From Cymodocea nodosa (lineage: Eukaryota > Streptophyta > Magnoliopsida > Alismatales > Cymodoceaceae): 64,000 nucleotides of DNA. Below, in pieces: positions 1-64,000 of this stretch. The position numbers were made by a program, and so were the translations under genes. Within the stretch, counting starts at the first letter, position 1. Each line of letters opens with the position of its first letter. The stretch covers positions 5,910,001 through 5,974,000 of the forward strand of contig CM072343.1 of NCBI GenBank assembly GCA_036874045.1, written 5' to 3'. Under the pieces are notes generated by a model. That model saw nothing but the letters and a program-made list of their open reading frames with translations, had not been told where the DNA came from and searched no databases.

Positions 1-73
1 TAATGTTGCCGTGAAATAACTAATCAGTTCAAGGGTGCATGATTCGGAAATTCAAAAAGAGGAAACAAGTAAC

Positions 74-23749: not shown

Positions 23750-24181
23750 TGTGGAGGATCGAAAAACTATATAAGAGAACGATGAATTGTATTTTTAACT
23801 ATAATCAAAACTTCAAAATTAAAAAAATTTAAAATATTATTTTATTTATTACTTTATATATAAAGTTTCAATTACAATATACAATTCAACTCTCCTTATA
23901 AATTTTAAGTGTAATGATGTAATGATAACATTCTTCACTTAATAAATTTCATAATTACAAATAAAAAAAACTAAATTACGAAATTAAAAACATTTCTCCT
24001 TATTTGATATCACTGTTTTCTTCTTCTTCTACAAACCTTTAGTGATGAATACCTAAATTTCTGCTCTTCATCGAAGTTGTTGAATTCTCTTACTTTTGAG
24101 AATTTTCTCCTAAAAGGTGTATCTCTGTATATATCTAAGTGTTAAGGGTGTATCTTGATCAACAAGAATTCTATACTTTAT
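23750..24181 (-). repeat. Old copia LTR fragment (minus), target of element F
   Basis: GTTTCAATTACAATATACAA then TTCAACTCTCC (about 23866-23896) is the reverse complement of the A-family LTR block around 38405-38435. The following TTTCTCCTTATTTGATATC and TTCTTCTTCT match the reversed LTR at 38260-38310. Only part of an LTR remains; the F LTR begins directly after it. Confidence 0.6.
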
Positions 24182-25437
24182 TGTAGTATCGTAGTATCAC
24201 AAGAGGGAGGGTGAATTGTGTTTTTAGCAATTAAAAATTACCAAGGGATAAAACAAGAGCACAAAACACTCATAAATAAAATTCTAATCTTTATAGACTT
24301 TAAAGAAAGAATTTACAATCTCTTTTCAACTCAATTCACTTCTTGTCGGTTCTAATACAATAAAGTCTGATATACAATTTAAAGAGAAAATAAAATCCTT
24401 ATTCTAAGATAATTTCAAATTGTATAAAACCTGATCTTTATACATGTAGCTCATTTTCCTTCTTTTTGCTCAACTTCTATATCTCTTCTTTTCTAGTTGT
24501 CGAATTTCCAAACTTCTTGCATTGCAACTCCTTTTCTGAAATTCCTTGAAATTCTGAACTTCTTTTGATGTTGGAGAATTTTTTTGGATTTGAATACTCA
24601 AATTTAGTGTTTGAGATTTGGATTGAATATTCAGACTTAGTATTTGAGATTGAAATGATTGTAATGCAACTCGTACCTTCTATTTATAGTAGTCAAACTA
24701 TGACTTCACATTCAGCATGTTCATCCACTTAATCCATAATCCCATGTACTAATTTCAAATTCAAATTATCCATGATTTCCATTGTCTTTTTGAATTTCTA
24801 CTATGTTCATTCTTTATTTTGAATGTCCACTATCATTTTGAATTTCTACGATTTCATATTGTAGATCCATCGAAACTTTATCTTCTTGAAGATTTATAGA
24901 ATATTTTCTAAGTTACTGCTTTAGTCAAACACTTATCCTATAAGTCTTGTAAAAACTTGAACACTTATCTGTAACTTTTCGAGTTCTTGTACCTACAAAA
25001 CACGTGACTAAATAAGAAAACTTATCTATTTATTAATCATTTTATAAAACTTGAACAGTTATCCATCCATGTATATAAAAACTCGAACAATTATCTAACT
25101 CTTCAATTTTTCATTACCGAACGCACATGGAAAACACGTAAAAACTTAAAACATTAAAAACACACGTGTAGATAACTTAACTATACGAGTTTTTAACATA
25201 ACTCTTCGACTAAATCAAAATGTTAACTATTCGAAAGTTTAAAAAGCTTAACTATCCTAAAACTTTAACTATTTGAAAATCCTTAACTATCTGAAAGTTA
25301 ACTATCCAAAATTTTAAATGAAACTTTTTGATAACTTGTCAACATTTAATTACGTGACTATTATACTTAGAAAAATTTATTTAGACTTATTTATAAACTT
25401 TAATGAAATATTCATCATCAAAACAAAATTCTTAACA
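24182..25437 (-). repeat. 3' LTR of element F
   Basis: 1256 bp, ends TGTTAAGAAT...ATACTACA on the minus strand (TG...CA). U3 has several GATAGTTAA-like motifs (25240-25310) and a 271-bp module (24922-25192) that is also found in gypsy solo LTR X. The first nucleotides (TTTTGTTTTGATGATG) resemble those of the A LTR, so F and A are related lineages. Confidence 0.88.
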
Positions 25438-25451
25438 ATCTCCCCCTTTTT
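25438..25451 (-). other. Polypurine tract of element F
   Basis: Minus strand AAAAAGGGGGAGAT directly before the LTR start TGTTAAG, identical to the tract of element A at 36999-37012. Confidence 0.85.
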
Positions 25452-25689
25452 GATGATGCCAAAACCTAATAAGTCAAATAATCTTTCCTCTCCCCTTTTT
25501 TGGCATTATAAAAAAGTAAACAATATGTAAGGAAGAAAAATACGCTAAGTATATATTTTTCAAAAAAAAATTTTTAAACATGCATAACTCATTCGTGGAT
25601 AATAAAAATTGTTTAAATAAAAATTATTTTAAACAAGAATCGTCAAAAACAAGTGTATAACTTTAAATTTTGTAAATAGTTTACATAAT

Positions 25690-27320: not shown

Positions 27321-27325
27321 TCATC
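27321..27325. repeat. Target-site duplication of element A (left copy)
   Basis: TCATC, repeated at 38560-38564 immediately after the 3' LTR. Confidence 0.85.
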
Positions 27326-36998: not shown

Positions 36999-37012
36999 AA
37001 AAAGGGGGAGAT
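36999..37012 (+). other. Polypurine tract of element A
   Basis: AAAAAGGGGGAGAT immediately before the 3' LTR start TGTTGAG; plus-strand primer site for reverse transcription. Confidence 0.9.
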
Positions 37013-38559
37013 TGTTGAGTATTTTGTTTTGATGATGTGTGCTAAATGAAAATAATCATATTTGCTCAATTACTATTGCTTGTGAAAAGAAATTAAAATC
37101 ATCAATTAATATAGAAAAAGTTTACTCATATAAATACTTGTCTGTATTGAATCTGAAATTATACTAAGTTAATAACTAGTCGTTTCGTTGCATTAATTTC
37201 TCATTTAACTAAACGTTAAGTTAACGTGTGTTTTTATTGAAAAGCATGATATATTTTAAAGTTATATTTTCGGTATCATGTATAGTGCATGTTTAGACAA
37301 CTCATTAAGTTAGAGTGTTATTTGTATAGAGGTTACGTGAGAACACATTAAGTTAGAGGCTTAAAGGTTAAAATAGGTTACGTGAGAACTCATTAAGTTA
37401 GTGAGTAAAAGAAGAGACGAACTCGTTAAGTTAGTGTTATACACGTGGTGAAATTATAAGTTACGAATGTTATATTGTATCACGTGAGGTGCACATGTTT
37501 AACTCGTTAAGTTAACATAACTAAATGCGTTGAGTTGCTATTGAACATTAAGGCAATGCATTAGTTTAGCATTATAAACTTAAGTTGTTTTCTTTTGCAC
37601 GTGGTAAAATTCTTATTATAAAAACATTTATTTATTACTAGTTCGTTGAGTTATCATAACATAACGAAGATGGTTCGTTGAGTTAGTATAACACCATGTA
37701 GCTACAGTACTAGTCATGTGTATTGGCACATGAGGAACTCGTTAAGTTAGAAACGTTAAGTTATATATATACTTGTGTTACTCGTTTAGTTAACATTAAA
37801 GTAATGACTTCTTATTACACTAATGAAAAATTTTTGGACGAGAAAGTTTATTTTGTAGGAAATTTTTCAGAGATCTAGGATTGTTGATTAAAGAAAATTT
37901 GAAATGTAAACGTGGGTAAGAACGTGTGTATTTCGATGAAGGAAAAAGAAAAGATGTGAAGAAGTGGAAAACTAGTAATGATTAAACGTGGAAGATATGC
38001 ATGAAATGAAGATACAATATAAAAGGCATTGAATTCTTGTTGATCAAATTATCCCTACACATCAAACGAAAAATCTTTTCAGGGATCAAAAACACCTTTT
38101 CGGGGAAAATCTCTCAGATGGAAGAAAATTCAATGAAGCATAACAAGGTAAGATTTATGTCACTGAAGATTTAAAGTATTAGAAGAAAGCAAATTTAGTG
38201 AAGCATAAAAAGACAAGATATTCGTCATTAAAGAATTGTTGAAGAAGAAAGAGAAGAAGAAGAAAGAGAAGAAGAAGAAGAAGAAAGATCTCAAACAGGG
38301 AGAAATGTTTTAAATTTTGCAAATTAGTTTTCTCTGTTTGTAGTTATGAAATTGTTTAGATGATGCATGATATCGAGATATAATTGCATCTACAATTTCT
38401 GAGGAGAATTGAATTGTATATTGTAATTGAAACCTTGAATAAAAATGATTTTATGAAAACAATGTCTCGACTTGTTTTTGAGTTTTAAAGTTTCAATTAT
38501 ATTTGAAAATATTGAAAAATATAATTCACCCCCCTCTTGTGTAGCCATACGATCCTACA
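37013..38559 (+). repeat. 3' LTR of element A
   Basis: 1547 bp, TGTTGAGTAT...GATCCTACA, followed by the TSD TCATC. U3 has the CGTTRAGTTA/G-box array; TATAAAA at 38018; a (GAA)n-rich stretch near 38240-38290; the end CCCCCCTCTTGTGTAGCC is typical of SIRE-like LTRs. Confidence 0.92.
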
Positions 38560-38564: not shown

Positions 38565-39010
38565 AAAATTTCCTACATTTTCTATTTCTGTATGTTTAGA
38601 ATGAAAAAGTGTATAATATTAACGGTTAAATGATGGTTAATTGTAGAATATTTAGCTTATCATATGAGAATTAAGCTATTATGTTATAAATGCACTATTA
38701 TATGCTTTAATGAAAAATTTTGAAATAATTTCAAGGAATTAGCATTAATTAAGTACATTTTTAAACTATCGGTAAGTTATAAGCTTTGAAATTCTTAAGT
38801 ATCCAAATTTTCTATTATTTTGGAGAGTTATATTGCATGTACTAGATAGTTATGTTTTAAATACTTAAAGAATATTTTATTATTTCCTAGAGTACACTTG
38901 TTGTAACCATAATGCATGACTTAAGTGAATGTTTTGTAAATTATTTGTTAACTATCCGAAATGCATTTGAGCATCGGATAGTTAGGTTTGTAAGTATCCG
39001 AAATATTTGA

Positions 39011-39240
39011 ACTTGTTAAGTTAGAATTATGCACGTGTTGAAATTAAATGCTCTAGTATATCACGTGAATTGCATATGTATAACTCATTAAGTTAGCATA
39101 ACTATATGCATTGAGTTAATTGAATATACACTAAGGTAACACATTGTGTTAGTAAGCTTACAAGTTATTTCTTTATTGCACGTGTTTTATAGTTAAATCA
39201 ACGAAGTAAGTCCGTTGAGTTATCTGTAACTTCATGGACC
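39011..39240 (+). promoter_or_regulatory. U3 module shared between gypsy LTR D and copia LTR A
   Basis: Shows in order ACTTGTTAAGTTAG, GCACGTGTTGAAATTA, ATCACGTGAATTGCATATG, AACTCATTAAGTTAGCATAA, ATGCATTGAGTT, ACTAAGGTAACACATT, GCACGTG and CCGTTGAGTTA. The same order is found at 27732-28018 in the copia LTR. Confidence 0.75.
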
Positions 39241-39417
39241 ATTTATTTTCTAATATGCCACTATAGCAGTTGCAGAAACAGGAAATTCGAAGGAAAACCA
39301 CAATTTCACGTGTCACGTAGGAATTCACTCGTGGAATGAAAAAAAAATCACCATCGTTGATATGAATGAACGAAATCCAACTGATCATCTAAGCAGAAGC
39401 AAATACTATAGAAAGAA

Positions 39418-39425
39418 ATATAAAA
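39418..39425 (+). promoter_or_regulatory. TATA box of gypsy LTR D
   Basis: ATATAAAAG upstream of a purine-rich leader; conserved (reversed) in X at about 46085 and in the E LTR part near 48830. Confidence 0.6.
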
Positions 39426-39476
39426 GAAGAGGAGAAAGATGAAGAAAAAGTGTGTGTGCAGAGGTGGAGAACCGCA

Positions 39477-39665
39477 CTAACTACAAGAAGCGTCAGAAGT
39501 TCCCTGAAGCTCCACACCACCACCAAAATCACCAATCATTGGAGGTCTGTAAGAATACTTTCCTGATGTCGGGTCAATTCCAAGCCAAACATGGTGATTG
39601 ACAACCACTATGAGAAGTGATCGCGTCGCAGGAAGGGAAGTCATTTTCACCAAACACCAACTCAT
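39477..39665 (-). other. Conserved antisense 62-codon ORF in gypsy LTR D
   Basis: MSWCLVKMTSLPATRSLLIV, then WLGIDPTSGKYSYRPPMIGD, GGGVELQGTSD. Open also in X (45847-46035) and the E LTR part (48600-48791). Runs opposite to LTR transcription. No family recognised; coding status unproven. Confidence 0.4.
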
Positions 39666-40599
39666 ATCTCAAGAGATCATAAAGCTTCTAGCCATGGTTT
39701 CAGGTTGATGCCAGTATGCTAAAGAGGAAATCATCTTACGATTCTTGATTCGCGATTCTATAGGGAGAGGAGGCAAGATTGTAAGTGATTAAGTTTTCAG
39801 TGGTGTAATCGTGTCGTATGTAGTGATAGAAGTTTTTACTATCGATAGAGATTTTTACATTTCACCTTTCATTCATCTTCAGGAACATATCGAAACAAAA
39901 ATACCAAAAACAACCAATTATCTGTGTTTACATTTAGTATTAAAGTGTTGTATTGTTTGTTTTGTATCATGATTAATATTATCATTATCAATATTTTGAA
40001 TATTTTATGTTTGTTTGATTCAGAAAATAGAAAATAGTTTTACAGTTTACTGAAATTGAATTGTTCCAGATACTTAAAGATTTTAATAGTTACTATTTGA
40101 AATATCTGAATGTTAGTGTTAGTTAATGATAAATCTAATATTAACTAACATTAAAGAGCTTAATTGATGTTATTTACATTCTTTGGAACCGCCCAATGAT
40201 TGGCTGAATTTCTTTGTAAATAGTAGTATTTAACTAGAAAGGTAGGTTTGTGGAGTTAACTTAAGTTCACGAGGTTAGTCCGTTGAGTTAACTATAACTC
40301 TACGAACTAAGTCCGTTGTGTTAACTGTAACTCAACGGAGTGCTTGACTGAACAAATATAAACTCCAATATAAAAATCGGAACAATACACAATTCTTACT
40401 CAATATTTATGGGATCGACCTGTACTTACACACAAATACAATATACACTGTGCACTTGTAATTAAAAATAGAAATTAGAGTTTAATATCTAATTTGTGTG
40501 AAAGGTTGTTTGTTTACTTCTAAAAGTAATTATTGATATAAGCATAAAAACAAATTAAACAAGTTTATAATTTAACTTTTCACAATAATACAAGTTTTC

Positions 40600-40696: not shown

Positions 40697-41272
40697 ATGG
40701 CATATGCTTATGCTCAAAGATTTCTAAAACCTGTAGTTAGCATATGTGAATTTTGCAATTTGGAAGGTCATGACATCTCTGATTGTTTGAAATTGAGACG
40801 ATTGTAGATGGTTAGATCACATGAACAACAAATGAATTATATTCAATATAATAGAGTTTAGTATGAGAATCCTATAGTTTACCCAACTAATGGTCAGTTT
40901 AGAATGTGTAATATGTTGAGAGACAAGGAAGTTTAGGATAGGTATGATAGATTAGAGCATAGCTTAGACCAAAACATAGACAAATTGGAATAATACATGT
41001 GTCAGTAACAAGAAGTCAACCAATTAAACTATAGGGAAGAATATATAGAACCTAAAATTGATATCATATATGAAACTGAAAAAACCATAATGAAAATTGA
41101 TCAAAAATTGAATGCAATGAGATTAGATGACTTGGAAAGAAAACTAAAAGCATTGGACAAATTTATAATGAAATTACAAGTTATGCAGTAGGAAAACAAA
41201 AATGAAAACTTTAATGTTATAGATTTGCTTAATTTGCAAGATATACAAACAAAAGAAAGTACCAATTCAATC
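40697..41272 (+). pseudogene. gag-like ORF of gypsy half-element D
   Basis: Starts MAYAYAQRFLKPVVSICEFC with a CX2CX4HX4C knuckle (CEFCNLEGHDISDC) only about 18 residues from the Met, followed by a helical region (RKLKALDKFIMKLQVM). Same layout as E, where it is open longer. The large capsid domain expected before the knuckle is missing. Stops are at Gln or Trp codons. Similarity to E ends near 41272. Confidence 0.7.
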
Positions 41273-41750: not shown

Positions 41751-42110
41751 ATGGGATATATGAAGTTGTTGATTTTAATTAAGCATCCTCTATTTTTCCT
41801 CTAGGGTATCTTATACTTTTATCTGCTAATTAAATGAATCCTAGTAGGGATTAAGCCTTCTAATTCTAAGGATGCAAATATATCATTTGACATAACATTT
41901 ATACCTGCACCTAGGTCTATTAAGGTTCTTTCTAGAATGGTACTTCCTATGGTGCATGATATAACAGAGATTCCGAGATCAGATAACTTTTTAGGAATTT
42001 GTGGTAGAAATAGTGAACTACTTTGCTCAGCTAAAAGACTTTCTTTAAAACTTTTCGCTCTCTTTTCTTAGTACACCAATCCTTAAGAAATTTTGCACAA
42101 TGTGGCATTT
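41750..42110 (-). pseudogene. Retropepsin domain of gypsy half-element E
   Basis: IPKKLSDLGISVISCTIGST, then LERTLIDLGAGINVMSNDIF and LELEGLIPTRI. This is the Athila/Tat protease pattern IP.KL.DPGSF.IPC.IG...F..AL.DLGASIN(L/V)MP. The active-site Asp-Leu-Gly is kept, the following Ser is Gly. No RT follows. Confidence 0.8.
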
Positions 42111-43192: not shown

Positions 43193-43199
43193 GAAAACT

Positions 43200-44054
43200 T
43201 GTTTGGTTGTTAAGTTAAATCAGAAACTTGTTTATTCAGCGGCACTAGAGAACTTGATTAAGTCCCTGGTCACGACGCTAGAAAACTTGTTTGATTTTGC
43301 TTATATTAATAAATTCTTTTAGAAGTAAATAAACAACCTTTCACACAATTTAGATACTGAATCCAATTTGTATTTTAACTGCAAGTTCATAGTGTATATT
43401 GTATTTGTGTACAAGTACAGGTCGATCCCACAGAGATTGAGTAAGAATTGTGTATCGTCTCGATTTTTATATTGGAGTTTTTATGTATTTAGTTAAGCAC
43501 TTCGTTGAGTTACAATTAACACAATGTAGTTAATGGAGTTATAGTTAATTCAACGGACTAACCTCATGGACTTAAGTTAACTCTACGAGCCTACCTTTTC
43601 AGTTAAATACTACTATTTATAGAGGAATTCGGCCAACCATTGGGCGGTTCCATAGAATGTAAATAACATCAATTAAGCTCTTTAATGTTAGTTAATATTA
43701 GATTTGTCATTAAGCAACACTAACATTCAGATATTTCAAACAGTAACCATTAAAATCTTTTAGTATCTGGAACGAATCAATTTCAGTAAACAATAAACTA
43801 TTTTCTATTTTCTAAATCAAACAAACATAAAACATTCACAATATTGACAATGATAACATTAATCACGATGCAAAACAAACAATACAACACTTTAATACTA
43901 AATGTAAACATAGATAATTTGTTGTTTATGGTATTTTTGTTTTGATATGTTTCTGAAGATGAGGGAAAGGTGAAATGTAAAAATTCTCTATTGATAGTAA
44001 AAACTTTCATCACTACATGCGATGTGATTACACTACTAAAAAATTAATCACTTA
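43200..44054 (-). repeat. 5' LTR of E, first part (internal side)
   Basis: Reverse complement of D's R/U5 part, ending AATCACTTA at 44054, where a copia LTR head begins. It continues after the inserts at 48479/48484. Confidence 0.8.
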
Positions 44055-45728
44055 TGTTGACTATTTTGTTTTGATGATATGTGATAAATGGATGTTTTAT
44101 GTTGTGAAAAGTTAAATCAGAAAACTTGTATTGGTTTGTCTTTATGCCTTTATCAATGATTACTTTTAAAAGTAAACAAACTACCTTTCACACAAATTAG
44201 ATATTAATTCCAATTTGTATTTTAACTGCAAGTGCATAGTATATATTGTATTTGTGTGCAAGTATAGGTCGATCCCACAAAGATTGAGTAAGAATTGTGT
44301 ACTGTTTCGATTTTTGTATTGGAGTTTATGTGTTCAATTAAGCACTCCATTGAGTTATAGTTAACATAACAGACTAAGTTCGTTGAGTTATGACTAACTC
44401 AATGGACTTAAGTTAACTTCACGAGTCTAATTTTTCCAATTGAATATTGTTAATTACATAGGAATTTGGCCAACCATTGGGTGGTTCCATAGATTGTAAA
44501 TAACATCAATTAAGCTCTTTAATGTTAGTTAACATTAGATTTATCATTAAGCAACACTAACATTCAGATATTTCAAACAGTAACCATTAAAATCTTTAAG
44601 TATCTGGAACGAATCAATTTCAGTAAACAATAAACTATTTTCTATTTTCTAAATCAAACAAACATAAAACATTCACAATATTGACAATGATAACATTAAT
44701 CACGATGCAAAACAAACAATACAACACTTTAATACTAAATGTAAACATAGATAATTTGTTGTTTATGGTATTTTTGTTTTGATATGTTCCTGAAGATGAG
44801 GGAAAGGTGAAATGTAAAAATTCTCTATTGATAGTAAAAACTTTCATCACTACATGCGATGTGATTACACTACTAAAAAATTAATCACTTATGTTGACTA
44901 TTTTGTTTTGATGATATGTGATAAACGGATGTTTTATGTTGTGAAAAGTTAAGTCAGAAAACTTGTATTGGTTTGTCTTTATGCCTTTATCAATGATTAC
45001 TTTTAGAAGTAAACAAACTACCTTTCACACAAATTAGATATTAATTCCAATTTGTATTTTAACTGCAAGTGCATAGTATATATTGTATTTGTGTGCAAGT
45101 ATAGGTCGATCCCACAAAGATTGAGTAAGAATTGTGTACTGTTTCGATTTTTGTATTGGAGTTTATGTGTTCAATTAAGCACTCCATTGAGTTATAGTTA
45201 ACACAACAGACTAAGTTCGTTGAGTTATGGCTAACTTAATGGACTTAAGTTAACTTCACGAGTCTAATTTTTCCAATTGAATATTGTTAATTACATAGGA
45301 ATTTGGCCAACCATTGGGTGGTTCCATAGATTGTAAATAACATCAATTAAGCTCTTTAATGTTAGTTAACATTAGATTTATCATTAAGCAACACTAACAT
45401 TCAGATATTTCAAATAGTAACCATTAAAATCTTTAAGTATCTGGAACGAATCAATTTTAGTAAACTATAAAACTATTTTCTATTTTCTGAATCAAACAAA
45501 CATAAAACATTCACAATACTGACAATGATAACATTAATCACGATACAAAACAAACAATACAACACTTTAAAACTAAAAGTAAACACAGATAATTTGTTGT
45601 TTTTTTGGTATTTTTATTTTTATATGTTCTTGAAGATGAATGAAAGGTGAAATGTAAAAATCTCTATCGACAATAAAAACTTCTGTCACTACATGCAATG
45701 CGATTACACTACTGAAAACTTAATCACT
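44055..45728. repeat. 837-bp tandem duplication, two copies
   Basis: 44055-44891 and 44892-45728. Each unit is a 38-bp copia LTR head (TGTTGACTATTTTG...) followed by the first about 799 bp of the reversed gypsy LTR up to AATCACTTA. The copies are nearly identical; the 71-codon open frames in the E LTR part (43798-44013) and in the first unit (44635-44850) differ by one residue. Confidence 0.85.
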
Positions 45729-45846
45729 TACAATCCTACCTCCTCTCCCTTTAGAATCGCGAATCCAGAATTGTAAGATGATTTCCTCTTCAGCATACTA
45801 GCATCAACCCGAAACCAAGGCTAGAAGCTTTACGATCTCTTGAGAT

Positions 45847-46035
45847 ATGAGTCAATGCTTTGTGAAAATGACTTCCTTTCCTGCGACGCGATCACTCCTC
45901 ACAGTGGTTGTCAAGCACCGTGTTTGGCTCGGAATCGACCTGGCATCAGGAAAGTATCCTCATAGACCTCCGATGGTTGGTGATTATGGTGGTGGTGTGG
46001 AGCTTCAAGGAACTTTTGACATTTCCTACAGTTAG
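45847..46035 (+). other. Conserved antisense ORF in LTR X
   Basis: 62 codons, MSQCFVKMTSFPATRSLLTV; counterpart of the minus-strand ORF in D (39477-39665). Confidence 0.4.
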
Positions 46036-46250
46036 CGCGGTCCTCCACCTCTACACACACACACTTCTTCATCTTTCTCCTCTTCTTTTATATTTCTTTC
46101 AATAGTAACTACTTCTGCTTAGATGATCGTTTGGATTTCCTTCATTCATATCAACGATGGTGATTTCTCCTTCCTTCCACGAGTGAATTCCTATGTGATA
46201 CGTGCAATCGTGGTTTTCCTTCGTATTGTATCTTCTTGTAACTCTTCATT

Positions 46251-46553
46251 TTAGTTGAACAGTTATCCTTTAAGTCTTGTAAAATCTCGAACACTTATCT
46301 ATAACTCTTCGAGTTTTTGTACCTACGAAACACGTGATTGAACATAGAAAACTTACCTGTTCGTTAGCCATTTTATAAAACTCGAACAGTTATCTATCTA
46401 TGCGTATAAAAACTTGAACAGTTATCTATCCATGCGTATAAAAACTCGAATAGTTATCTAACTCTTCGATTTTCATTACCAAACGCACATGGAAAACACG
46501 TAACAACTTAAAACATTAAAAACACATGTGCAAATAACTTAACTATACGAGTT
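46251..46553 (-). promoter_or_regulatory. U3 module shared between gypsy LTR X and copia LTR F
   Basis: Very close to 24922-25192: both read TAAGTCTTGTAAAA, CACTTATCT.TAACT, TTGTACCTAC, AACACGTGA, CGCACATGGAAAACACGTAA and TTAACTATACGAGTTT in order. X has one extra internal repeat of GAACAGTTATCTATC. Confidence 0.85.
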
Positions 46554-48483
46554 TAGATATTTCGGATACTTACGAACCTTAACTATCCGATGCCTAGATG
46601 CATTTCAGATAGTTAACAGATAACTTATCGAAAATTCACTTGTCGTGCATTGAGGTTTCAACACTCTAGAAAATAATAAAATATTCTTTAAGCATTTAAA
46701 ACATAACTGTCCAGTACATTAAACATAACTCTCTAAAATAACAGAAAATTCGGATACTTAAGAATTTCATAGCCTACAATTTACCAATAGTTCAGAAATA
46801 TACTAAATTAACGCTAATTCCTTGAAATTATGTAGATTCTTTCATTAAAGCATATAACAGTGCAATTATAACATAATGGCTTAATTCTCATATGATAAGC
46901 TAAGTATTATGTAATTAACCATGATTTAACCCTTAATATTATGCACTTTTTCATCCTAAACAACGGAAATAGTCATATTTACTCAATTACTATTGTTTGT
47001 GAAAGTAAATTAAGAACATCAATTAATACAGAAAAAGTTTATTGATATAAATACTTGTCTGTAATGGATCTGAGATTATGCTAAGTTGAATAAATAGTTG
47101 TTAAGTTATACTAATTTTTCATTTAACTAAACATTAAGTTAACGTATGTTTTTATTGTAAAGTATGATATGTTTTAAAGTTATATTTTCTATATCATGTA
47201 CAATGCACATTAAAGACAACTCGTTAAGTTAGTGAGTTATTTGTATAAAGGTCACGTGAGAACTCATTGAGTTATAAGCTTAAAGTTTAAAATAGGTCAC
47301 GTGAGAACTCGTTAAGTTAGTGAGTAAAAGAGCAATAGGAAGAGACGAACTCGTTAAGTTAGTATTGTACACGTGGTGAAATTAAAGTTTACGAATGTTA
47401 TATTGTATCACGTGAGTTGCACATGTTTAACTCATTAAGTTAACATAACTACATGCATTGAGTTGCTATATTGAACACTAAGGCAACGTGTTAGGTTAGC
47501 GTTATAAACTTAAAGTTGTTATTATTGCACGTGGTAAAATTATTATTATAAAAACATTTGTTTATTTCTGGTTCGTTGAGTTAGCGTAACACCATGAAGC
47601 TAGTTTGTTGAGTTAGCATAACACCATGGACTTAGTTCATTGAGTTAGCTACAATACTTATCACGTGATTTGGCACATGATAAACTCGTTGAGTTAGATA
47701 CATTAAGTTATAAATATATTTGTTTTACTCATTTAGTTAACATTAATACAACGACTTGTTATTACACTTGATGAAAAATTTTGGATGAGAAAGTTTATTT
47801 TGTAGGAAAATTTTCAGAGATCTAGGATTAATGATTAAAGAAAATTTGAAAGGAAAAGCGTTGGTCAGAATGTGTGTATTTCGATGAAGGAAAAGCAAAA
47901 GACGTGAAGAGTAGAAAACTGATAGTGATTAAACGTGGAGGATATGCATGAAGTAAATATACAATATAAAAGGCATAGAATTCTTGTTGATCAATTATCC
48001 CTGCACACCAAACGAAATATATTTTCAGAGATCAAAACACCTCTTCGGGGAAAAGCTCTCAGAGAGAAGGAAATTTAGTGAAACAAAGAAAGTCAGATAT
48101 ATGTCACTGAAGATTTGAAGAAGAAGAAAGCAAATTCAGTGAAGCAAAAAAGGTTAGATATTTGTCACTAAAGAATTGCAGAAGAAGAAGAAGAAAAAGA
48201 AGGAAAATCTTAAACAAGGAGAAATGTTTTAAATTCTGCAAATTAGTTTTCACTAGTTGTAGTTATGAAATTGGTTAGATGAAATATGGTATTGTTATAT
48301 AATTGCATCTACAATTTCTGAGGAGAATTGAATTGTATATTGTAATTGAAACATTGAATAAAATGATTTGATTAAAATAGTGTCTCGACTTGTTTTTAAT
48401 ATTTGAAGTTTCAATTATTGGTTGAAAATATTGGAAAACACAATTCACCCCCCTCTTGTGTAGCCATTCGATCCTACAACTTA

Positions 48484-49578
48484 CAATCTTCACTCCTCTC
48501 CCTATAGAATCACGAATCAAGAATTGTAAGATGATTTTCTCTTCAACATACTAGCATCAACCCGAAACCAAGCCTAGAAGCTTTACGATCTCTTGAGATA
48601 TGAGTTGGTGCTTAGTGAAAATGTCTTGCCTTCCTACGATGAGATCACTCCTCACAGTGGTTGTCAATCACCGTGTTTGGCTCGGAATTGACTTAACATC
48701 CAGAAAGTATCTTCACAGACCTCTAATGGTTGGTTATTTTGGTGGTGTTGGTGTGGAACTTCAGGGAACTTTCGACACTTCCTGTAGTTAGCATAGTTCT
48801 CCACCACCGCTTCTTCGTCTTTCTCCTCTTCTTTTATATTTCTTTTAGTAGTAACTGCTTCTACTTAGATGATCGATTGGATTTCCTTCATTCATATCAA
48901 TGATGGTGATTTCTTCTTCATTTCACAAGTGAATTCCTACGTGATACGTGCAATCATGGTTTTCCTTCAATTTTCTTGTTTCTGCAACTACTACAGTGGC
49001 ATGTTAGAAAATAAATGGTCTGTGGAGTTAGTGTAACTCAATGGACTTACTTCGTTGATTTAACTATAAAACACATGCAGTAAAGAAATAATAAGTTCAG
49101 ATGTTTCAGATAGTTGCAACTATAAGTATCCGAAACTTATATGCATTTCAGATAGTTAGCACCTAACCTTTCGAAAGATAACTTAAGTTAAGCTTCCAGT
49201 ATGCGATACATGCCCTCAAGTAGTTTTATGATAAAAAGATATTTCAGATACTTGCAAATCTAACTATTTGATGCCTAGATGCATTTCAGATAGTTAACAG
49301 ATAACTTACCGAAGATCCACTTAAATTGTATATTAAGGTTTCAACATGTGTACTCTAGGAAATAATAAAATGTTTAAAACGAAACTATCTGGTACATTAA
49401 ATATAACTCTCTGAAATAATAAAAAATTCAGAGACTTAGGAATTAAAAAGCCTGTAATTCACCGATAGTTCAGAGATGTACTTAATTAACATTAATTTCC
49501 TAAAATTATGCAAATTCTTTCATTAAAGCATATAACAGTGCATTTATAACAAAATGGCTTAATTCTCATATGATAAGT
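48484..49578 (-). repeat. 5' LTR of E, second part (outer side), truncated
   Basis: Continues the E LTR across the G insertion and ends CATATGATAAG at 49578, about 80 bp short of the expected LTR tip, where copia B sequence begins. U3 carries a third variant: a duplicated GATAGTTA/AAGTATCTGAAA segment and only the end of the D-type module. Confidence 0.8.
48600..48791 (+). other. Conserved antisense ORF in E LTR part
   Basis: 63 codons, MSWCLVKMSCLPTMRSLLTV, third copy of the antisense ORF. Confidence 0.4.
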
Positions 49579-52500
49579 GTAGAAAACTGAGGATTTAATT
49601 TGCTGAGTGTTATAAAACTAATTGATAATGGATACTATGTATTGTTTGAAGATAATGTATGCAAAATTATTGATAAAATTACAAATGAACTTAAGTTTAT
49701 TGCTAAAAGAAAATGTTCTGTATGTATTTTATCTTTACCTTCTGGTGTAGTTGATTTAAATTCATGTTTGCTAGCTAAAACTAGTGATGCATATCTTTGG
49801 CATAGAAGGATCAGACAAATAAATATGAAACTATTGCATAAATTGTCTAGAAAAAATTTAGTGAGAGGTTTACCAAAGATTAAATACTCAAAGGATTTCA
49901 TGTGTGATGCATGTGAGTTAGGTAAACTTCATAAAAACTCTTTTAAATCCAAAACTGATATATCAAGCAAGAGAGTCTTAGAACTTATGCATATGGATCT
50001 ATTTGGACCAACAAGAATCATGAGTCTTGGTTGTAAACAATATGTATTTGTGTTAGTAGATGACTTCTTTAGATACACTTGGGTATATTTTCTAGCAACT
50101 AAGACAGAAGTTTTTGAAATGTTTAAAATGTATTGCAAGCTTGTTTAAAATGAACAAAGTGTCTCTATTCAAAAACTTAGGAGTGATCATGGTACTGAAT
50201 TTGAAAATGATCAAATAGATAATTACTATATAGATCATGACATTGATCATAGATATTCTTTTCCAAGAGCACATTCTAAAAATGGTGTTGTTGAAAGAAA
50301 GAATCGATCACTTCAAGAAATGGCCAGAACTATGTTAAATGAACATAATTTACCTCAAAATCTTTGAGCTGAAGTAGTGAATACAACTTGTTATATTATT
50401 ATTAGAAATCACCTAAGACCTCTTGTTAATAAAACTCCTTTTGAAATTATATTTGATAGGATTCCAAAAATTTCCTATATGAAACCAATTTTTTTTTTTT
50501 TTTAAGGGTCCTCCTTAAACACTCAAACAGTTATAGCTTGCCAATGCTTGAGTAGAGCCAACACAACTGCCAATAGGCATTGCACGAGAACTTCCCAAGT
50601 GGTCACTCATCCTGGTTCTGCTCCCACCCAAACATAGTTAACTCCAAAGTTTCTTGGTAGTAGGTGTAAATGCACCTTATGAAATCATTTGGCTATAAGT
50701 GTTTTATCCTTGACACTAAGGATAAAAGGGATAAATTTCAAGCCAAAGCAAATGAAGGAATTTTTGTAGATCACTCTACTAGAAGTAAAGCCTATAGAGT
50801 TTATAATAAAACTTCTAGAACCATTGAAGAAACCCTTCATGTAAGCTTTAATGAAAATTCTTTTAGAGAATCTCAATCTAAAGCTGATAATGATGATATG
50901 ATCAATTTCCAAAAAGAATTAGAGATCAATAGAGAGATTGAAGATTTATCTAAGAAAATTAAAAATTTGAACTTAAATGATCAAACTAATGATGAAAGTG
51001 ATGTACCTTCAGATGTTGACGATAATATTGAAGAAAATCATAGAAATTGGCGTTATTCTTCGTCACATCCCATCACTCAAGTCATTGGTAATATTAATGA
51101 GGGAGTTAAAACTAGAGCTTCAGTAAATTTAAATAGTATGTGCATGTTTGTTTCTATGGTGGAACCAAAGAATATAGAAGAAGCATTATCTAATAAAAAT
51201 TGGATAGTGGCAATGCAAGATGAACTAAATCAATTCATCAGAAATGATGTTTGGTAATTAGTCTCTCCACTAGAAAATCAGTCCATAATAAGTACAAAGT
51301 GGATCTTTAAAAACAAAACTAATGAGACTGGTCAAGTTATAAGAAACAAAGTTAGATTAGTTGCACAAGGGTATACATAGGAAGGACTTGATTATGATGA
51401 AACATTTGCTCCTATGGCTAGGTTAGAAAGTAAAATATTATTGGCCTATGCTTGCTATATAGATTTTCAACTATATCAAATGAATGTAAAGAGTATATTT
51501 CTAAATGGTTTAATTAATGAAGAAGTTTATGTGAAACAACCACCTGGATTTGAAGATATTAAAAATCCTAACTATGTGTAAAAATTGAAGAAAGCCTTAT
51601 ATGATTTGAAGCAAGCACCTAGATCGTGATATGAAAGATTATCTACTTTTCTTGTAGAACAATGATATATCATGGGAAAAGTAGACCATACTCTTTTTAT
51701 CAATAAAGATGATAAAGATCAGATTGTTCAAATATATGTGGATGATATAATCTTTGGAGCAACTTCTAATAAACTGATAAAAATATTTCCTGAAGAGATG
51801 ACTTGTTAGTTTGAAATGAGTATGATAGGAGAACTTTCATATTTTCTAGGACTTCAAATTAAGCAAATGGATAAAGGTATATTTTTAAATCAGGAAAAAT
51901 ATGCAGTTGAATTGCTTAAGAAATTTAATTTTAATGATACAAGGACTTAAGGAACTTCTATGAGTACTTCTTTAAAGTTAGATATTGATGACATAGGAAA
52001 ATCAATAAATCAAAGAAAATATAGAAGTATGATTGATTCTTTACTTTATTTGACAGCTAGTAGACCGATATCATGTTTGCTATGTGTGCTTGTGCTAGAT
52101 TTCAATCTAATCCTAAAGAATCACACTTAATGGCTGTTAAAAGAATATTTAGATATATACAAGGAACTAAAAATTTTGGTTTGTATTATTCTAAGGATAG
52201 TTCAATAGATCATATAGGATATACTGATACTGATTACATAGGATCTAAATCTGATAGAAAAAGTACCAGTGGCACATGCCAATTATTGGGAAATAATTTG
52301 GTGTCATGGTTTAGTAAAAAGCAAAACTGTGTAGCACTTTCAACCACAGAAGCTGAATATGTTAATGTTGCATTGTGTTGCACTCAGATTCTATGGATAA
52401 GGCAAACTTTAGAAGATTTTGGATTATCTTATGATACAACTGAGATTCATTGTGATAGTAGTTCTACAATAAATCTTTCCAAAAATCCTATATTACATTC

Positions 52501-52690
52501 TAGAGCAAAACATATAGAGGTTAGACATCATTTTCTAAGAGATAACGTAATTTAAGGAAAAATTAAATTAGGATTTGTGTCTAGTAAAAATCAATTGGCT
52601 GATATATTTACAAAACCTTTAGATGAAAATACATTCTGCAACATAAGGTTAAATTTAGGTATTTGTAGGTTATGTGATGTGTAAAATGCT
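49579..52690 (+). pseudogene. pol of element B (integrase, RT, RNase H)
   Basis: Integrase HHCC (HRRIRQIN ... CDACELGK) and DDE blocks (MDLFGPTRIMSLG, SDHGTEFEN, NGVVERKNRSLQEMA), then a SINE insertion at 50489-50678. After it come GYKCFILDTKDKRDKFQAKA, RT (QMNVKSIFLNGLINEEVYV with Asp changed to Asn; YVDDIIFGAT intact) and RNase H (GYTDTDYIGSKSDRKSTSG, ALSTTEAEYVNVAL, IHCDSSSTINLSKNPI). Numerous stops and one-base shifts, e.g. at 51257, 51380 and 52070. Same fold order as A; no active enzyme possible from it. Confidence 0.88.
50489..50678 (-). mobile_element. 5S-rRNA-related SINE
   Basis: About 190 bp inserted in B's pol. On the minus strand it starts with a 5S-rRNA-like head (50577-50676: GGTGCATTTACACC, GAAACTTTGGAGTTAACTAT, GTTTGGGTGGGAGCAGAACC, AGGATGAGTGACCACTTGGG and AAGTTCTCGTGCAATGCC line up with plant 5S rRNA). 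A non-5S body follows, then a run of 15 A. Flanks are repeated: TATGAAACCA (50478-50487) and TATGAAATCA (50678-50687), the sequence uninterrupted in element A. That is the SINE layout: Pol III head, body, A tail, TSD. A Cassandra LTR is the alternative, but the A tail and longer TSD argue against it. Confidence 0.8.
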
Positions 52691-54189
52691 TAAACTCCAC
52701 AAAAGATAAATATTGTTGATGATGTTGTTTACCTCATAGATATTATATACTTATCATAAATATCTATGTAATATCTAAACTGCTGCATAAAATACTATGT
52801 ATTTATAATGAAATTATTGTAGTATCTTATTGATTTTACGTGTTTTTTTAAGTTTAATGGTTTTTAAAATTTTAAGTGGAAATGTCAATGAAAAACATTA
52901 AATTCCTCTAAAATCCTGAAATTTTGATTAAGTGTTTTCTTTGGATCAATGAAAGTGCATATGATCAAGAATGAGTTTGACTTGATTGATTAAACTTGTA
53001 GAATAATTTATATGTAAATCATATTAAGCTACTGATCAAAATTATGAGCTTATTGAAATTGATTCATATTTTCAGTAAAATCATAAAAGTAAAAATTTTG
53101 TGAGATTTGTACTTTATTGTATTTGTATTAACGAAATACATATATACTATATTTAAAATAAAAAGTGCTTATAAAGTAAAAATCTTTGAGAGTTTATTGT
53201 TCAGTTTGATCATGAACCTCTTGTACTTGAGAAGATAGGTATGTAAGGATTGTTGTCTTGGAAAATGATTTTTTAAATCTGGCAACCTAAGGTCCTGATC
53301 AAACTTGAGATTATTGACTGAAAGCTCATTACACGGGTACATTAGAAAGCTCTTGTATGATTCAAGCTTTTCAAACTAACTTTTAAAGAAAATTATCAAT
53401 ATTTATTGTTTTAAAAAGATAAAAGTTATTTCATTAAATATAGATATCTTTGAATCGAATATAGTTTCTACCATTATGACTACTGATTTGTTGAATCTAA
53501 ATTAGTACTTTTGAAAATAATTATTTAAGATACATTTCTTTATTCTCCTTGTGTTAATCATATTAAGTTTAAAGTTATGTTTTGATTCATATACAGTTGG
53601 AGTTGATTTTGGAAATCATTCTTGATGAATTCAAGATAATGGAAATTTCGAAGAAGAAAATTTAAAGTATAGTTATAAGTAACACCTACTTTATACAAGT
53701 ATATTTTGTATGTTATTGAATATATTTGAAGTATATTTCTAGTTGGAGGATTTACAATGTCCAAAACAGATTAATATCATTCAAAATATATACCTTAGTT
53801 AATCTGAGTTTTGTCCTCTTAAGATCTTGATGAAACAATTTCACAGACAAACAAACTATTTTAGGTTTATAAAAAGAATATTAGAATAGTTTATAATGTT
53901 TTGAAGATAATGTTTATATCTGTTACTTATTGCTTGTATGTTGTTTTTGAAAGCTTTCAGTTGAAAACATCCGAAACTTGCTTTTTTAGTCCAAGTATAC
54001 TAATTAGACGTTATGCTATGTAAGGTAACGTGTAAAACTACCTCTAGATAGCATTTTACTTGTTAGGTTAGGTAACTCAATGAGTTATGCTTAAATTTTT
54101 TAGGTACTTCGATTGAATAAACTTTATTCAATATTCATTTAAAACTCAAACCTGACTGATAAACTTGTTAAGTTATGCTACTGAAACCC
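52690..54189 (+). other. Conserved noncoding spacer of element B
   Basis: Aligns with 33490-34990 of element A through most of its length; no ORF. Contains the same hairpin block and GTTAGGTAACTCAATGAGTT near 54065. Confidence 0.6.
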
Positions 54190-54197
54190 TATTTAAA
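54190..54197 (+). promoter_or_regulatory. Putative internal TATA box for the accessory ORF (element B)
   Basis: TATTTAAA within ACCCTATTTAAACA, 87 bp before the ATG at 54277; same context as element A. Confidence 0.5.
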
Positions 54198-54276
54198 CAT
54201 TTATTACATGGGAACTTAGGTTATCTCATAACATCTTTCTGAAAATCTTTCCCGCCTGTTCCTATAACAACCTGCA

Positions 54277-56526
54277 ATGATGTTTTCAAACTTCTATAAA
54301 GGGTGTGGGAGAGGTAAAGGAAGAGGCAGAGGAAATGCTAAAGGCAAAGAAATAGATGTAAATGACATTCCTCGTACATGGTTTAAAAAGATTTTTCAAG
54401 TAGACAAAATGTTAGCTCAAATATATCGTGACTATTTCTTTTTTGAAGAGATACTTGATGAAGTTAGACAAGAACTTCAAAATACAACTGACAATATACA
54501 ATATATGGGCATAAGAAGTACATTTGACAAAGAATATCATATGAAATATGTTGAAATAGCATTTTTGGAATAATATACTAAATACTTGGAAAAAGGAGTA
54601 GGTTCTTCAAATAGAATTCCTTAAACACCTATCAATGGAACACAACTACAATTGTTTGAGGAAGAACATGAATCTACAATACCTATACCTTTATTTTCCA
54701 AGGAAAAACAAACAAATATTGCTGTTGATCAAGAAAAAGTTGAGAGTCTTCGTAAAGCAATAACTGTTGAGAGTGCTTTCAAAGAATTGAAACAACAAAC
54801 TTTTTTGAAACAAATGCATAACAAAACTGCAATAACTCAACAGGAAGAATAACTGACTTGCTACAAGAGACAAAGAGTTAGAAAAATTGTTTCTAAGGAA
54901 ATGCATTTAGTTGAAAAAGGAAAATCAAATGAGGATTTAATTCCATAGGGCAATGTATGTCTAGACATTGTGCCTTTTAGTGCATCTAATAAGCTCATAA
55001 GTTCTGAATACATTGAAACTGATGATGATGAAACTTTATTATCTTTTTCTAGAAAACTTGAAAAGTGCTCAAAGCCACAAATTAGTTCAAGTTTTTATAT
55101 AATATCAAGCCTTGATGATAAGGTAATTGAACAATTAGAGCATTAAGCAGATGACATTGAACAAGTTATTGCTGATGTGCTTGAAAATATTGACGTAGTA
55201 ACTAGTTTAGAGGCTAGATTGTTTAGAGTAGTAGCTATTGAAAAAGATAAGACTCTAGAAGAGCTTAATGTTGATCAGCCTTTTTTAGAATCTATAGAAC
55301 TAGAGTTTAAGAATTCACAACATGTTGAAATGGAAATATCTGTTGAGGAAAATGCAGAATTACAGACAAATACATCGGTTGTTGAATTTGTGGAAAAATT
55401 ACACTCTGACTATTCTATATAAACTGAACTTATGGATGTAGTGGATATTGACAATGTTCCTCATACTATTGAAGCTGAAGAATCAAGCTTACCTAAGCAG
55501 CTTCAAGAACATATTTTAACAAAGGAACACGATGACATTCATTTTGAAGAAGAGATTCCTGAAGGAGACTTAAATTCTGAATCAAGGCTTCAGGTATCAC
55601 CTTCTATGTATAGAATACTACCCATTCAAGGAAATTCAATACATATTAGGTCTGAGGAAGCATTGTAGAAATACACTAGTTTGATTTCTTATCAAATTCT
55701 ACATGCTCGACCAATAAAATTTAAAAGTTTACTGGAAATAAAAGCTTTATTTGAGTTTCAAGGCTTAATGCAATTCTTACCAACTGGAACAAAATGGAAG
55801 CAATATAAAGAGCTTATTGTTATTTTTTACAGCAATCTGGTAAAGAATGATAATATGTTGACAACTCAAATAAATTAATAGGAGTTTACTTTATCTCTTG
55901 AATTGATTTTTGAAGTTTTGAGATTAAGGAATGAAGGTGTTGCTGTTACCAACAGATTTGACATTGTTAGACAACTAGAATGGGACATTCACTCGTTATC
56001 ATAGATTCCAAGTGTATATAATGAAATGAGATTAATGGAAAATCTGAATGCAGAAGCAATGCTTATTGCAAATATTCTACATGCAAATATATTTTAGAGA
56101 GTTGGACATAATCTGGAAGTAAGCAGAAGTTGTTTATATGCAACTTATGGCATACTATACAGAATTCAAATTAATTGGTTTGATGTTTTTATATATCAAC
56201 TATAGCATATGAGTTCAAAGTTATTTTTTGATGATGTTGTATGTCAAATTCTTGCAAGCCAATTAAACTTATTTGACTGGCCCTCTCAAAACTAAAGGCA
56301 TGAGAGCATTTAGTGTCAAAGATTTGCAAAAACACTAGCAAACGCAACAATAGCAACAACAACAACCTCACCTTCAACAACAACAACAATAGCAAAACTA
56401 TTCAGATCAAGTACAACAGCAACCTGAGCTACCTCCTATCTTAGATGTAGTGTTGAATGACATCAGAAATGATATTAGGCATCTAAGAAATAAAATTTGT
56501 AATGTTATTAGTGATATCATTAGGAG
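54277..56526 (+). pseudogene. Post-pol accessory ORF of element B (near full length, about 750 codons)
   Basis: MMFSNFYKGCGRGKGRGRGN start, then VPRTWFKKI-like IPRTWFKKIFQVDKMLAQIY, an acidic and helical middle (ELNVDQPFLESIELEFKNSQ), the C-terminal domain (ISYQILHARPIKFKSLLEIK, FEFQGLMQFLPTGTKWKQY, FYSNL, LELIFEVLRLRNEGV, LEVSRSCLYATYGILYRIQI) and a CAA-coded poly-Gln tract (56340-56425) before a helical end (LNDIRNDIRHLRNKICNVIS). Stops sit mostly at CAA/CAG codons (for example after AFLE, RIP, TQQEE), and one frame change lies near 56215. No signal peptide, membrane helix or cysteine pattern of an envelope protein. The domain order resembles the putative plant transposon protein family; function unknown. 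Confidence 0.75.
56340..56425 (+). repeat. CAA-rich poly-Gln tract in B's accessory ORF
   Basis: Runs of (CAA)4-5 broken by TAG at former CAG codons and by Pro/His codons. Element F has a Gln-rich tract at the same place (about 25890-25970, minus). Confidence 0.75.
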
Positions 56527-57714
56527 GAATAGTGATATTGTTGAGTTAGTGCATTATTTGTATAAAGATCATGTGAGAACTCGTTGAGTTAGTGAGCAAA
56601 ATGTTAAAATGAAGAGACAAACTCATTATGTTAGTATTGTGCACGTGGTGAAATTAAGGTTTACGAATGTTATATTGTATCACGTGAGTTGCACATGCTT
56701 AACTCGTTAAGTTAACATAACTACACTAATTGCATACGTTGAGTTGCTATATTGAACACTAAGGCAACATGTTAGGTTAACATTATAAACTTAAAGTTAT
56801 TATTATTACACGTGGTAAATACCTTATTGTAAAAACATTTATTTATTATTGGTTCATTGAGTTATCAGTAACACAACGAAGTTGGTTCATTGAGTTTGTG
56901 TAACACCACGAAGCTGGTTCGTTGAGTTAGTTATAGTACTTGTCACGTGATTTGGCACATGATGAACTCGTTAAGTTAGATACGTTAAGTTATAAATCTA
57001 CTTGTTTTACTCATTTAGTTAATATTAACATGACTTGTTATTATACTTGATGAAAAATTTTGGACGAGAAAGTTTATTTTGCAGGAAATTTTTCAAAGAT
57101 CCAGGATTGATGATTAAAGAAAATTCAAAAGGAAAACGTGGGTTAGAAGGTGTGTATTTCGATGAAGGAAAAAGAAAAGACATGAAGAGTGGAAAATTGA
57201 TTGTGGTTAAATGTGGAGGATATGCATAAAGTGAATAGAAGATCACCAAACGAAATATATTTTTAGGGATCAAAACACCTCTCTAGGGTAAATCTCTGAG
57301 ATAGAAGAAAATTCAGTGAAGTAGAGAAAGTCAAATATATGTCACTAAAGATTTGAAGATTCAGAAGAAAGTAAATTTGGTGAAGCAAAGAAAGTCAGAT
57401 ATGTGTCATTGAAGAATTGCAGAAGAAGAAGAAGAAGAAGGAAAATCTCAAATAGGGAGAAATGTTTTAAATTCCATAAATTAGTTTTTTCTATTTGTAG
57501 TTGTGAGATTGATTAAATGAAACATGGTATCGTTATATAATTGCATCTATAATTTCTAAGGAGAATTGAATTGTATATTGTAATTGAAACCTTGAATAAA
57601 ATGATTTGATTAAAATAGTGTCTCGACTTGTTTTTAATTTTGAAGTTTCAATTATAAATGAAAATGTTGAAAAACACAATTCACCCTCCTCTTGTGTAGC
57701 CATTCGATCCTACA
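56527..57714 (+). repeat. 3' LTR of element B (about 290 bp missing at its start)
   Basis: Joins the accessory ORF directly; polypurine tract and LTR start are deleted. Matches A and G from the ATTTGTATA.AG.TCA.GTGAGAACTC block to GATCCTACA. G-boxes, CGTTRAGTTA motifs and (GAA)n are kept; the TATA-box region of the A LTR seems deleted near 57240. Confidence 0.8.
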
Positions 57715-59230
57715 ATCAGCTATTATCTTATCAATAGGATGAGATGATGTATAATGCCAATTTCTATGTTGTTCCACATTTTCTATAGGCATGACATTAT
57801 TTTCTTCTAAATCTTCATCATTTAAGTTTATATTTCTTAGTTTGTTAGATAATTTCTCAATTTCTCTATCAACATCATTTGATACCATTTCTGGGAGAAT
57901 TTCTAAATCAATATTTTCAGCATGTCTAAAATCCAAATGAGAATTTTCATGAAATTTCACATGTAGGGTTTCCTTAATGGTTTTTGTTGATTTATTATAT
58001 ACTCTATATGCCTTACTTCTAATAGAATAACCAACAAAAATACTCTCATCTGATTTAACTCTAAATTTGTCTCTACGTTCCTTAGTATTCAAAATAAAAC
58101 ACTTGCAGCCAAAGGGTTTTAAATAACTTATTTTGGGAACCCTATTATACCATATCTCATAAGGAGTTTTATCCAAAATTGGTCTTAGATATACTCTATT
58201 TATAACATAATATGCTATATGAACTGCTTCTACCTAGAGAGATAGGGGTAACTTATTTTCATTTAACATGATTCTGGACATTTCCTGAAGTGATCTATTT
58301 TTACATTGTACTATCCCATTTTGTGAAGGAGCTCTTGGAAATGAGTACCTATGATCTATGCCTAATTCTTCACAAAAGGTGTCCATTTGATCATTATCAA
58401 ATTCTGTATCATGATCACTCCTAAGTTTTTGAATTTTAACATTCTGCTCATTCTAAACTTTATTACAGAATATTTTAAATATTTCAAAAACTTCAGTTTT
58501 ATTAGCTAGAAAATAAGCCCATGTAAACCTAGAATAATCATCAACTAGTACAAAAGCATAATGTTTACCTCCTAGATTGGTTGTTCTAATAGGTCCAAAT
58601 AAATCCATAGGCACTAGTTCTAATACTCTTTTGCTTATTTTATTTAAACTTTTAAAGGATGTTTTATGTAATTTACCTAATTGACATGCATCACACATAA
58701 CCTCTTTCGAGTAATTAATACTAGGTAAATCTCTAACCAGATTCTTTTCAGACAGCTTTTATAATCATTTAAAGTTTGAGTGTCTTAGCCTTCTATGTCA
58801 TAAAATAACTTCATCCGATTTTGCAATTAAGCAAGCATCTTCTTTAATAATATCAGAAGGCAAGTTCATAATACAAATAGATCTTTTCTTGTATGTAGTA
58901 AATAAAATTTCGTTTGTATGCATGTCTATAATTTTATAGGAATCTTTTTCAAAAATCACATTGTAAAATTTCATTAAGACAGAAATACTCAATAAATTAT
59001 AACCTAAGTTTTCTACTAATAAGACATCATTTATAAAACACTTTTCAGTTACCTGAACCTTGCTAGACCTAAGGATTTTTGTTTTGCTTTTATTTCCAAA
59101 GGTAACTTGTCTGTTCTTTGTCTTTCTTACTTTTGTAAGTAATCATATATCTCTAGTTATGTGGCTGGATACTCCACTATTCATTATCCATTTTGATTTG
59201 TGTACCTGCATAATAGTTAAGAAGAGATTT
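57715..59230 (-). pseudogene. Protease-integrase part of element F pol
   Basis: Minus strand. Protease WIMNSGVSSHITRD has Asn in place of the catalytic Asp (family DSG). Then HRRLRHSNFK and CDACQLGKLHKTSFK (zinc domain), MDLFGPIRTTNLGGKHYAFV with LVDDYSRFTWAYFL, SDHDTEFDN, and a degraded NGIVQCKNRSLQEM. After that a long open part (57652-58176) with GCKCFILNTKERRDKFRVKS and SIFVGYSIRSKAYRVYNKS. Cut at 57715 after HYTSSHPIDKIIA by element B; RT and RNase H are absent from the window. Confidence 0.88.
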
Positions 59231-63887: not shown

Positions 63888-63899
63888 GCTCTGATACCA
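63888..63899 (-). other. tRNA-iMet primer-binding site of element F
   Basis: Minus strand TGGTATCAGAGC, two bases from the LTR end: the standard plant Ty1/copia primer site complementary to initiator tRNA-Met. Confidence 0.92.
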
Positions 63900-63901
63900 A
63901 T

Positions 63902-64000
63902 TGTAGGATCGTAATATTACAAGAGGGGCGGGTGAATTATGTCTTTAGCAATTAAAAATTACCAACGTATAAAACAAGAGCACAAAAATACTTGTAAATA
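63902..64000 (-). repeat. 5' LTR of element F (partial; continues beyond the window)
   Basis: First 99 bp of the LTR (read on plus: TGTAGGATCGTAAT...), matching 24182-24280. About 1.16 kb should follow outside the window. Confidence 0.88.

Follow-up and report, generated by a model that had tools for sequence, protein, structure and literature searches.

How does a segment of the U3 region of a copia LTR come to lie in an LTR of an apparently unrelated, gypsy-like family? The question is raised by a solo LTR, X, in the window analysed here (a stretch of 64,000 nucleotides of Cymodocea nodosa DNA). A sequence-only reading of this window had proposed that X carries the U3 module of a copia element, F, at an identity of well over 80 %. 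This match is real. LTR X (46250-46554) and copia LTR F (24920-25192) can be aligned end to end in 306 columns, both segments being on the minus strand at LTR positions 409-713 in X and 244-516 in the 3' LTR of F; the borders first proposed were nearly right, lying 1-2 bases off these. Identity is 89.0 % over 272 ungapped columns (26 transitions and 4 transversions) and 79.1 % when gaps are counted, so the earlier figure stands for the ungapped columns and not for the gapped alignment; the difference stems from an additional copy of a short tandem unit in X, which largely makes up the gaps (3 openings, 34 columns). The local score of 319 exceeds the highest value (32) obtained from 200 dinucleotide-preserving shuffles, and chance similarity of motifs was rejected as the source of the match on these scores. 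The 20-mer and both flank words quoted in that reading are present in the sequence. Relative to the LTR, the segment points the same way in X and F, and beside it the two LTRs are not alike, the observed scores being reached in 304/500 shuffles to its left and in 260/500 to its right. The flanks in X align to those of a sister LTR, D (38591..40591, plus strand, 3' end set by eye), at 88.6 % and 88.4 %. At E 0.01 the 64-kb window holds no further copy of the segment except for short sub-repeats inside both modules, and one scan of viral contigs with exact 20-mers gave no match; F-type copies number one per LTR backbone, within one 64-kb window.

X (44930..46962, minus strand) is a solo LTR, as had been claimed: a single LTR of 2033 bp running from TG to CA, alignable to D, with the target duplication ACGGA on either side (44925-44929 and 46963-46967) and without an internal region. 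It was inserted 33 bp plus the target duplication inside a solo A-type copia LTR (44892..48478, plus strand; ACTTA at 44887-44891 and 48479-48483), which itself splits a third member of X's family, LTR G. The part named E (48479..49577, minus strand), previously taken as an independent LTR, proves to be the U3-side half of G, cut at its 5' end; the remaining part, S1 (43194..44054, minus strand, with the 43194 end set by eye), has ACTTA at 44050-44054 to pair with that at 48479-48483. In E the A-type interior is absent, only the ends of the A-type segment are kept and the left flank is duplicated. Between S1 and the copia solo LTR lies S2 (44055..44891), an 837-bp hybrid of S1-like and X-like parts. 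In LTR sense, its first 400 nt have 5 mismatches to S1 and 25 to X, and its next 350 nt have 49 to S1 and 4 to X (799 nt were compared, the last 49 nt being left uncounted); the switch falls about 350-400 nt into the unit, and each counted part is about 1 % from its parent. We read S2 as a putative product of unequal crossing-over between the nested S1 and X. An arrangement in which X is a 5' LTR with three tandem units, a PBS and gag was ruled out by the start of the A-type LTR between the units and by the two target duplications. An assembly chimera at X is most improbable: X is a complete LTR with its target duplication, both module ends lie inside it and the module is 11 % from F. LTR G is truncated at 49577-49578, about 65 bp short of its 5' end, and there abuts a second A-type copia body (49578-57715) in its integrase region.

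We tentatively take X, D and G to be Ty3/gypsy elements of an Athila-like kind, on the putative type of their PBS and on a protease motif. A site resembling a tRNA-Asp-type PBS, the kind used by Athila, follows both D and S1. Downstream of D this PBS-like site is D's own and is accompanied by a gag-like remnant; after S1, PBS-like, gag-like and protease-like remnants run on the minus strand down to 41272, and the gag-like remnants of D and G are 89.8 % alike over 666 columns. A remnant at 41819-42067 with the motif DLGAGINVMS may be a gypsy piece of the gag/protease type. None of the three gag/protease-like pieces gave a Pfam match (0/3), a homolog search with the protease-like piece was empty, and the window has no recognisable pol that goes with D, X or G. 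At 41271-41272, D with its gag-like remnant (plus strand) meets the internal region of G (minus strand) head to head.

On the copia side, F and A1 show marks of Sirevirus elements. The 3' LTR of F (24181..25435, minus strand) is bounded by a polypurine tract (PPT) and an AT/TG attachment site, GGGGGAGATTG, from 25436 upward; the only other exact match in the window is at 37004 (plus strand), beside the 3' LTR of copia A1 (37013..38559, plus strand), which carries an A-type module and a palindrome cluster. The PPT lies within an inverted repeat with arms CATCATCAAAA and TTTTGATGATG in both F (25413 and 25448) and A1 (36992 and 37027). The 5' LTR end of F with its PBS junction (63888..64000, minus strand) runs off the window and is 88.8 % identical over 98 columns to the 3' LTR; its CA/ATTGG-TATCAGAGC junction at 63888 is the only one in the window, none was found there for A, and the A-type 5' junctions appear to have been lost. 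From these two ends, F appears to be the older element that encloses the nest. A C-rich integrase signal is found at 38527 and 48446 on the plus strand and at 63919 and 24199 on the minus strand. Pfam domains are gag_pre-integrs, rve and SH3_retrovirus in A1, and Retrotran_gag_2 and SH3_retrovirus in F; a homolog search with the copia integrase had named plant relatives among the matches listed (the best 120 of 448) and gave nothing on LTRs. The PPT, inverted repeat, attachment site, PBS junction and integrase signal are, in F or A, like those of Sirevirus elements as the accessible text of PMC2829016 describes them. The bodies of A1 and F match at about 70 % in DNA, with no match to the A1 body in 25436-27340. 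An A-type LTR end fragment at 23752-24180 (minus strand) adjoins the 3' LTR end of F (score 192, shuffles at most 45).

The slot occupied by the F-type segment in X is occupied in D by an A-type module (39009..39184, plus strand, LTR position 419-594), which bears out the proposal that one slot of this family holds two copia-like modules. The slot segment of D matches all four A-type copia LTRs (4/4), the best at 47347-47533 with 75 % identity counting gaps and 89.0 % over 163 ungapped columns (9 gap openings, 36 gap columns). Relative to D, the F-type segment in X replaces about 250 bp: X lacks the stretch shared by D and E on the right-hand side of D's module, and positions 157-275 of the D slot match E over their length and X only in short words elsewhere. 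Descent of both types from one diverged module was not supported, with the score of the D slot against the X module being reached in 40/200 shuffles; against the F module the D slot shows a weak likeness (3/200). The LTRs of copia A1 and F have only their ends in common (score 48, 0/200 shuffles). Without these ends they are not alike (score 32, reached in 33/200), nor are the copia A and F U3s on their own (50/200). There are, therefore, two module types on two unrelated LTR backbones and hence at least two transfers.

Sharing is also seen outside the slot. An A-type LTR stripped of its module resembles the LTR of D (3/500 shuffles), and the A-type palindrome array has matches in E at 49018-49072 (78 %, 55 columns) and in D at 40245-40326 (72 %, 82 columns; the resembling stretch of D reaches to 40332), which lie outside the A-type module of the gypsy-like LTRs. 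The left flank of F weakly resembles that of D (5/500 shuffles; 29/500 against X reversed). Words like GTTAACTATCCGAAA, a motif taken from D, occur eight times in the window at up to 2 mismatches, four times in F (all in its left flank), once each in D and X and twice in E, the carrying regions being 24181-25435, 38591-39008, 46555-46962 and 49094-49577. From the sequences at hand, this sharing may reflect older exchanges in either direction or common short motifs.

At the left border, the words are ..ATATCTAAACTCGTATAG in X, ..TTAAAAACTCGTATAG in F, ..ATATTTGAACTTGTTAAG in D, ..GACGAACTCGTTAAG in the A-type LTR A2 and ..ACATCTGAACTTATT in the second flank of E; all five have RAACTY in common, at the same place in D and X. 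At the right border, the words GTTCAACTAAAATG (X), GTTTGACTAAAGCAG (F) and TTTTCTAATATG (D) share CTAA. No target duplication or inverted terminus was seen at the module borders when these words were compared by eye. A simple nested insertion of the F-type segment, named beforehand as an observation that would overturn the exchange, fails on two counts: no target duplication belongs to the segment itself, and the slot sequence has been replaced. The borders fit a joining at very short homologies. In X the segment lies in LTR orientation upstream of a TATA-like box (46086..46092, minus strand, LTR 871), which matches that of D (LTR 829); F has its TATA-like box near LTR 748, with the module at 244-516.

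The segment is rich in a palindrome, AACTC-N3-GAGTT. Scored at up to 2 mismatches, with a motif that was picked after seeing these same sequences, the A-type LTRs hold 9, 10, 9 and 6 copies, F holds 6 (5 in the module) and X holds 8 (6 in the module); the four A-type LTRs and F lie above all 200 shuffles (means 0.7-1.3, maxima 3-5), and the counts in D (4) and E (2) are within the shuffle maxima (5 and 3). CACGTG occurs twice in the F module, once in the X module and three times in the D module. According to the accessible text of PMC2829016, most RM copies in Sirevirus LTRs are found from 200-400 bp onward and precede the TATA box, and our cluster is alike in being palindromic and in occupying the upstream LTR half, ahead of this box. 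The RM boxes described there differ from ours in two respects: a CGG-CCG core is present in 12/13 published RMs, with Tnd-1 as the exception, whereas it is absent from the palindrome defined here, and a matching cluster is found here in a non-Sirevirus LTR as well. Copies per element are at least 8 in that source, compared with 6 in F. Palindromes like AACTCGTTGAGTTA, one of them exact, occur in A-type internal regions at 34874 and 54073-54162; in this they are like the RM copies of Sirevirus linker domains.

Our results suggest that the F-type segment moved from the U3 of a Sirevirus-type copia element into the gypsy-like LTR X, which we consider the likely course of events. The moved piece would be the palindrome cluster of a Sirevirus-type U3, upstream of the promoter, and the copia piece would have taken over the corresponding U3 piece of the gypsy-like LTR by recombination at very short homologies, joining at RAACTY on the left, a word that the recipient shares with both module types, and probably at CTAA on the right. 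The donor would be the copia side. Transfer may have taken place while both families were still mobile, the simplest route being a switch of template between RNAs packaged together, and with the segment would come sites that regulate the promoter, namely the palindromes and CACGTG boxes. We favour this reading because of the homology of the segment, the sharp F borders, the orientation, the position relative to the TATA box, the loss of slot sequence and the intact solo LTR, and because the segment has no target duplication and A-type and F-type modules alternate on both backbones. Against it stand the single F-type copy on each backbone, which bears on both direction and recurrence, the palindrome counts of D and E within the shuffle maxima, the absent CGG-CCG core and the sharing outside the slot. 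Copia and gypsy RNAs are not expected in common particles, which also counts against it.

The sequence-only reading had looked to module and flank divergence to tell recent exchange from common descent, and the two proved equal: K2P is 0.123 (95 % 0.080-0.176) for the module between X and F and 0.127 (0.104-0.153) for the flanks of D and X. The LTR pair of F itself gives 0.123 (0.053-0.202; 98 columns), and the D module against A2 gives 0.121. The module divergence is no larger than what F and X could have gained after insertion, which points to an exchange shortly before mobility ended or in place soon after, two timings that the K2P intervals are too wide to separate. Of the repeated cassette exchange proposed earlier, the exchange is supported by the slot, the orientation, the sharp F borders and a module about as diverged as the flanks; the cassette mechanism and the enhancer role are conjectural, as is the recurrence, given one F-type copy per backbone in one window.

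It is less likely that the segment was copied into X after insertion, through ectopic DNA repair with F or an F-like LTR as template, and that X is a one-locus oddity. This account has the same donor side as the favoured one and differs in time and mechanism, so that the likelihoods we attach to the two are not exclusive. F is part of the same nest, at a distance of 21 kb, S2 is a sign of recombination among these LTRs at the DNA level and the junctions have only short shared words; however, there is no long flanking homology to start a conversion, the orientation and place are those of the U3 slot used in D too, and X and F have diverged as much as the two LTRs of F from each other, albeit with wide intervals. 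A study of 15 plant species, in its accessible text, finds LTR conversion between different elements to be much rarer than conversion within one element (PMC7251063). A trimmed relic, in which an F-type copia LTR inserted into the gypsy-like LTR and was cut back by two deletions, is improbable. Such insertions do occur, as the copia LTR inside LTR G demonstrates, but both deletions would have had to spare just the palindrome cluster, and D and X would need the same left border from different donors. Separate insertion of a small mobile element or repeat into both LTRs would explain why a defined unit of 273-305 bp is present in two unrelated LTRs; we regard it as very unlikely, since no target duplication or terminal inverted repeat was seen at the borders, the slot sequence was replaced and not simply interrupted, and the window holds no further copy at the threshold given above.

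Transfer in the opposite direction, from the gypsy-like LTR to copia F, would make the U3 of F the acquired one. The GTTAACTATCCGAAA-like words are suggestive here, with four in the left flank of F and all eight matches of the window (8/8) confined to F, D, X and E; the weak similarity of the F and D left flanks and the difference between the copia A and F U3s point the same way. This direction is nevertheless unlikely. Clusters of palindromes at this position have been described for Sirevirus elements, and the A-type copia has one as well; the F segment is absent from two of the three gypsy-like LTRs (D and E); and the flanking sequences of F and X cannot be aligned. Transfer from copia into the gypsy-like LTR remains our preferred reading. 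A wider and more doubtful proposal is that the Sirevirus palindrome cluster is an exchangeable enhancer cassette, whose repeated boxes would give the short homology for template switching during reverse transcription or repair; unrelated superfamilies might in this way keep acquiring each other's current regulatory regions, escaping silencing or following new host signals.

Several known systems resemble parts of this picture. Tnt1 and Retrolyc1 copia elements have distinct U3 regions on otherwise common elements, which has been called modular evolution, but this is within one copia superfamily group, and the accessible text names no donor from another superfamily (PMC1838419). In centromeric gypsy elements, segments including LTRs have been shuffled between subfamilies, and template switching or illegitimate recombination after nesting was proposed, but here too the accessible account stays within one gypsy clade (PMC4079200). 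Chimeric LTRs formed by template switching were proposed for Triticeae elements (PMC1950507), and recombinants were reported during transposition in Onsen bursts (PMC5668417), in both cases between the same or similar families in the text accessible to us. Pararetroviruses have a regulatory region common to otherwise weakly similar elements through region-specific recombination, although the regions in the accessible account are intergenic and homogenised between partners (PMC5491270). We found no description of a copia-gypsy U3 exchange in the open-access literature searched, which is weak evidence of absence. Du et al. (2010), going by their title, reportedly dealt with LTR swapping between autonomous and non-autonomous partners in soybean.

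Retrotransposon families are known to turn over their U3 regions, but where a new U3 came from can usually not be told. In the X-F case, the U3 segment has a relative that can be identified in what appears to be another superfamily, and one slot has two such types; this offers a direct handle on the origin of regulatory regions and bears on whether particles or repair templates are common to unrelated elements. It suggests that retrotransposons of apparently unrelated kinds can trade control switches. If this is true, superfamily borders can be crossed both in assigning families by their LTRs and in silencing through small RNAs of matching sequence, and the exchange of such segments could be counted within one host genome.

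The nest of LTR retrotransposons lies between and beside two reading frames. The frame at 14572-15513 (minus strand) is an EMC1 exon: Pfam gives the EMC1 N-terminal propeller at 32.3 bits, just under the cut-off of 34, and a homolog search returned 114 matches, named as ER membrane protein complex subunit 1, at up to 60 % identity (54 % in Ensete ventricosum). The frame at 29-853 (minus strand), which had no Pfam match, is presumably another exon. Outside the nest, local repeats of about 73-79 % identity are present at 7163-7527.
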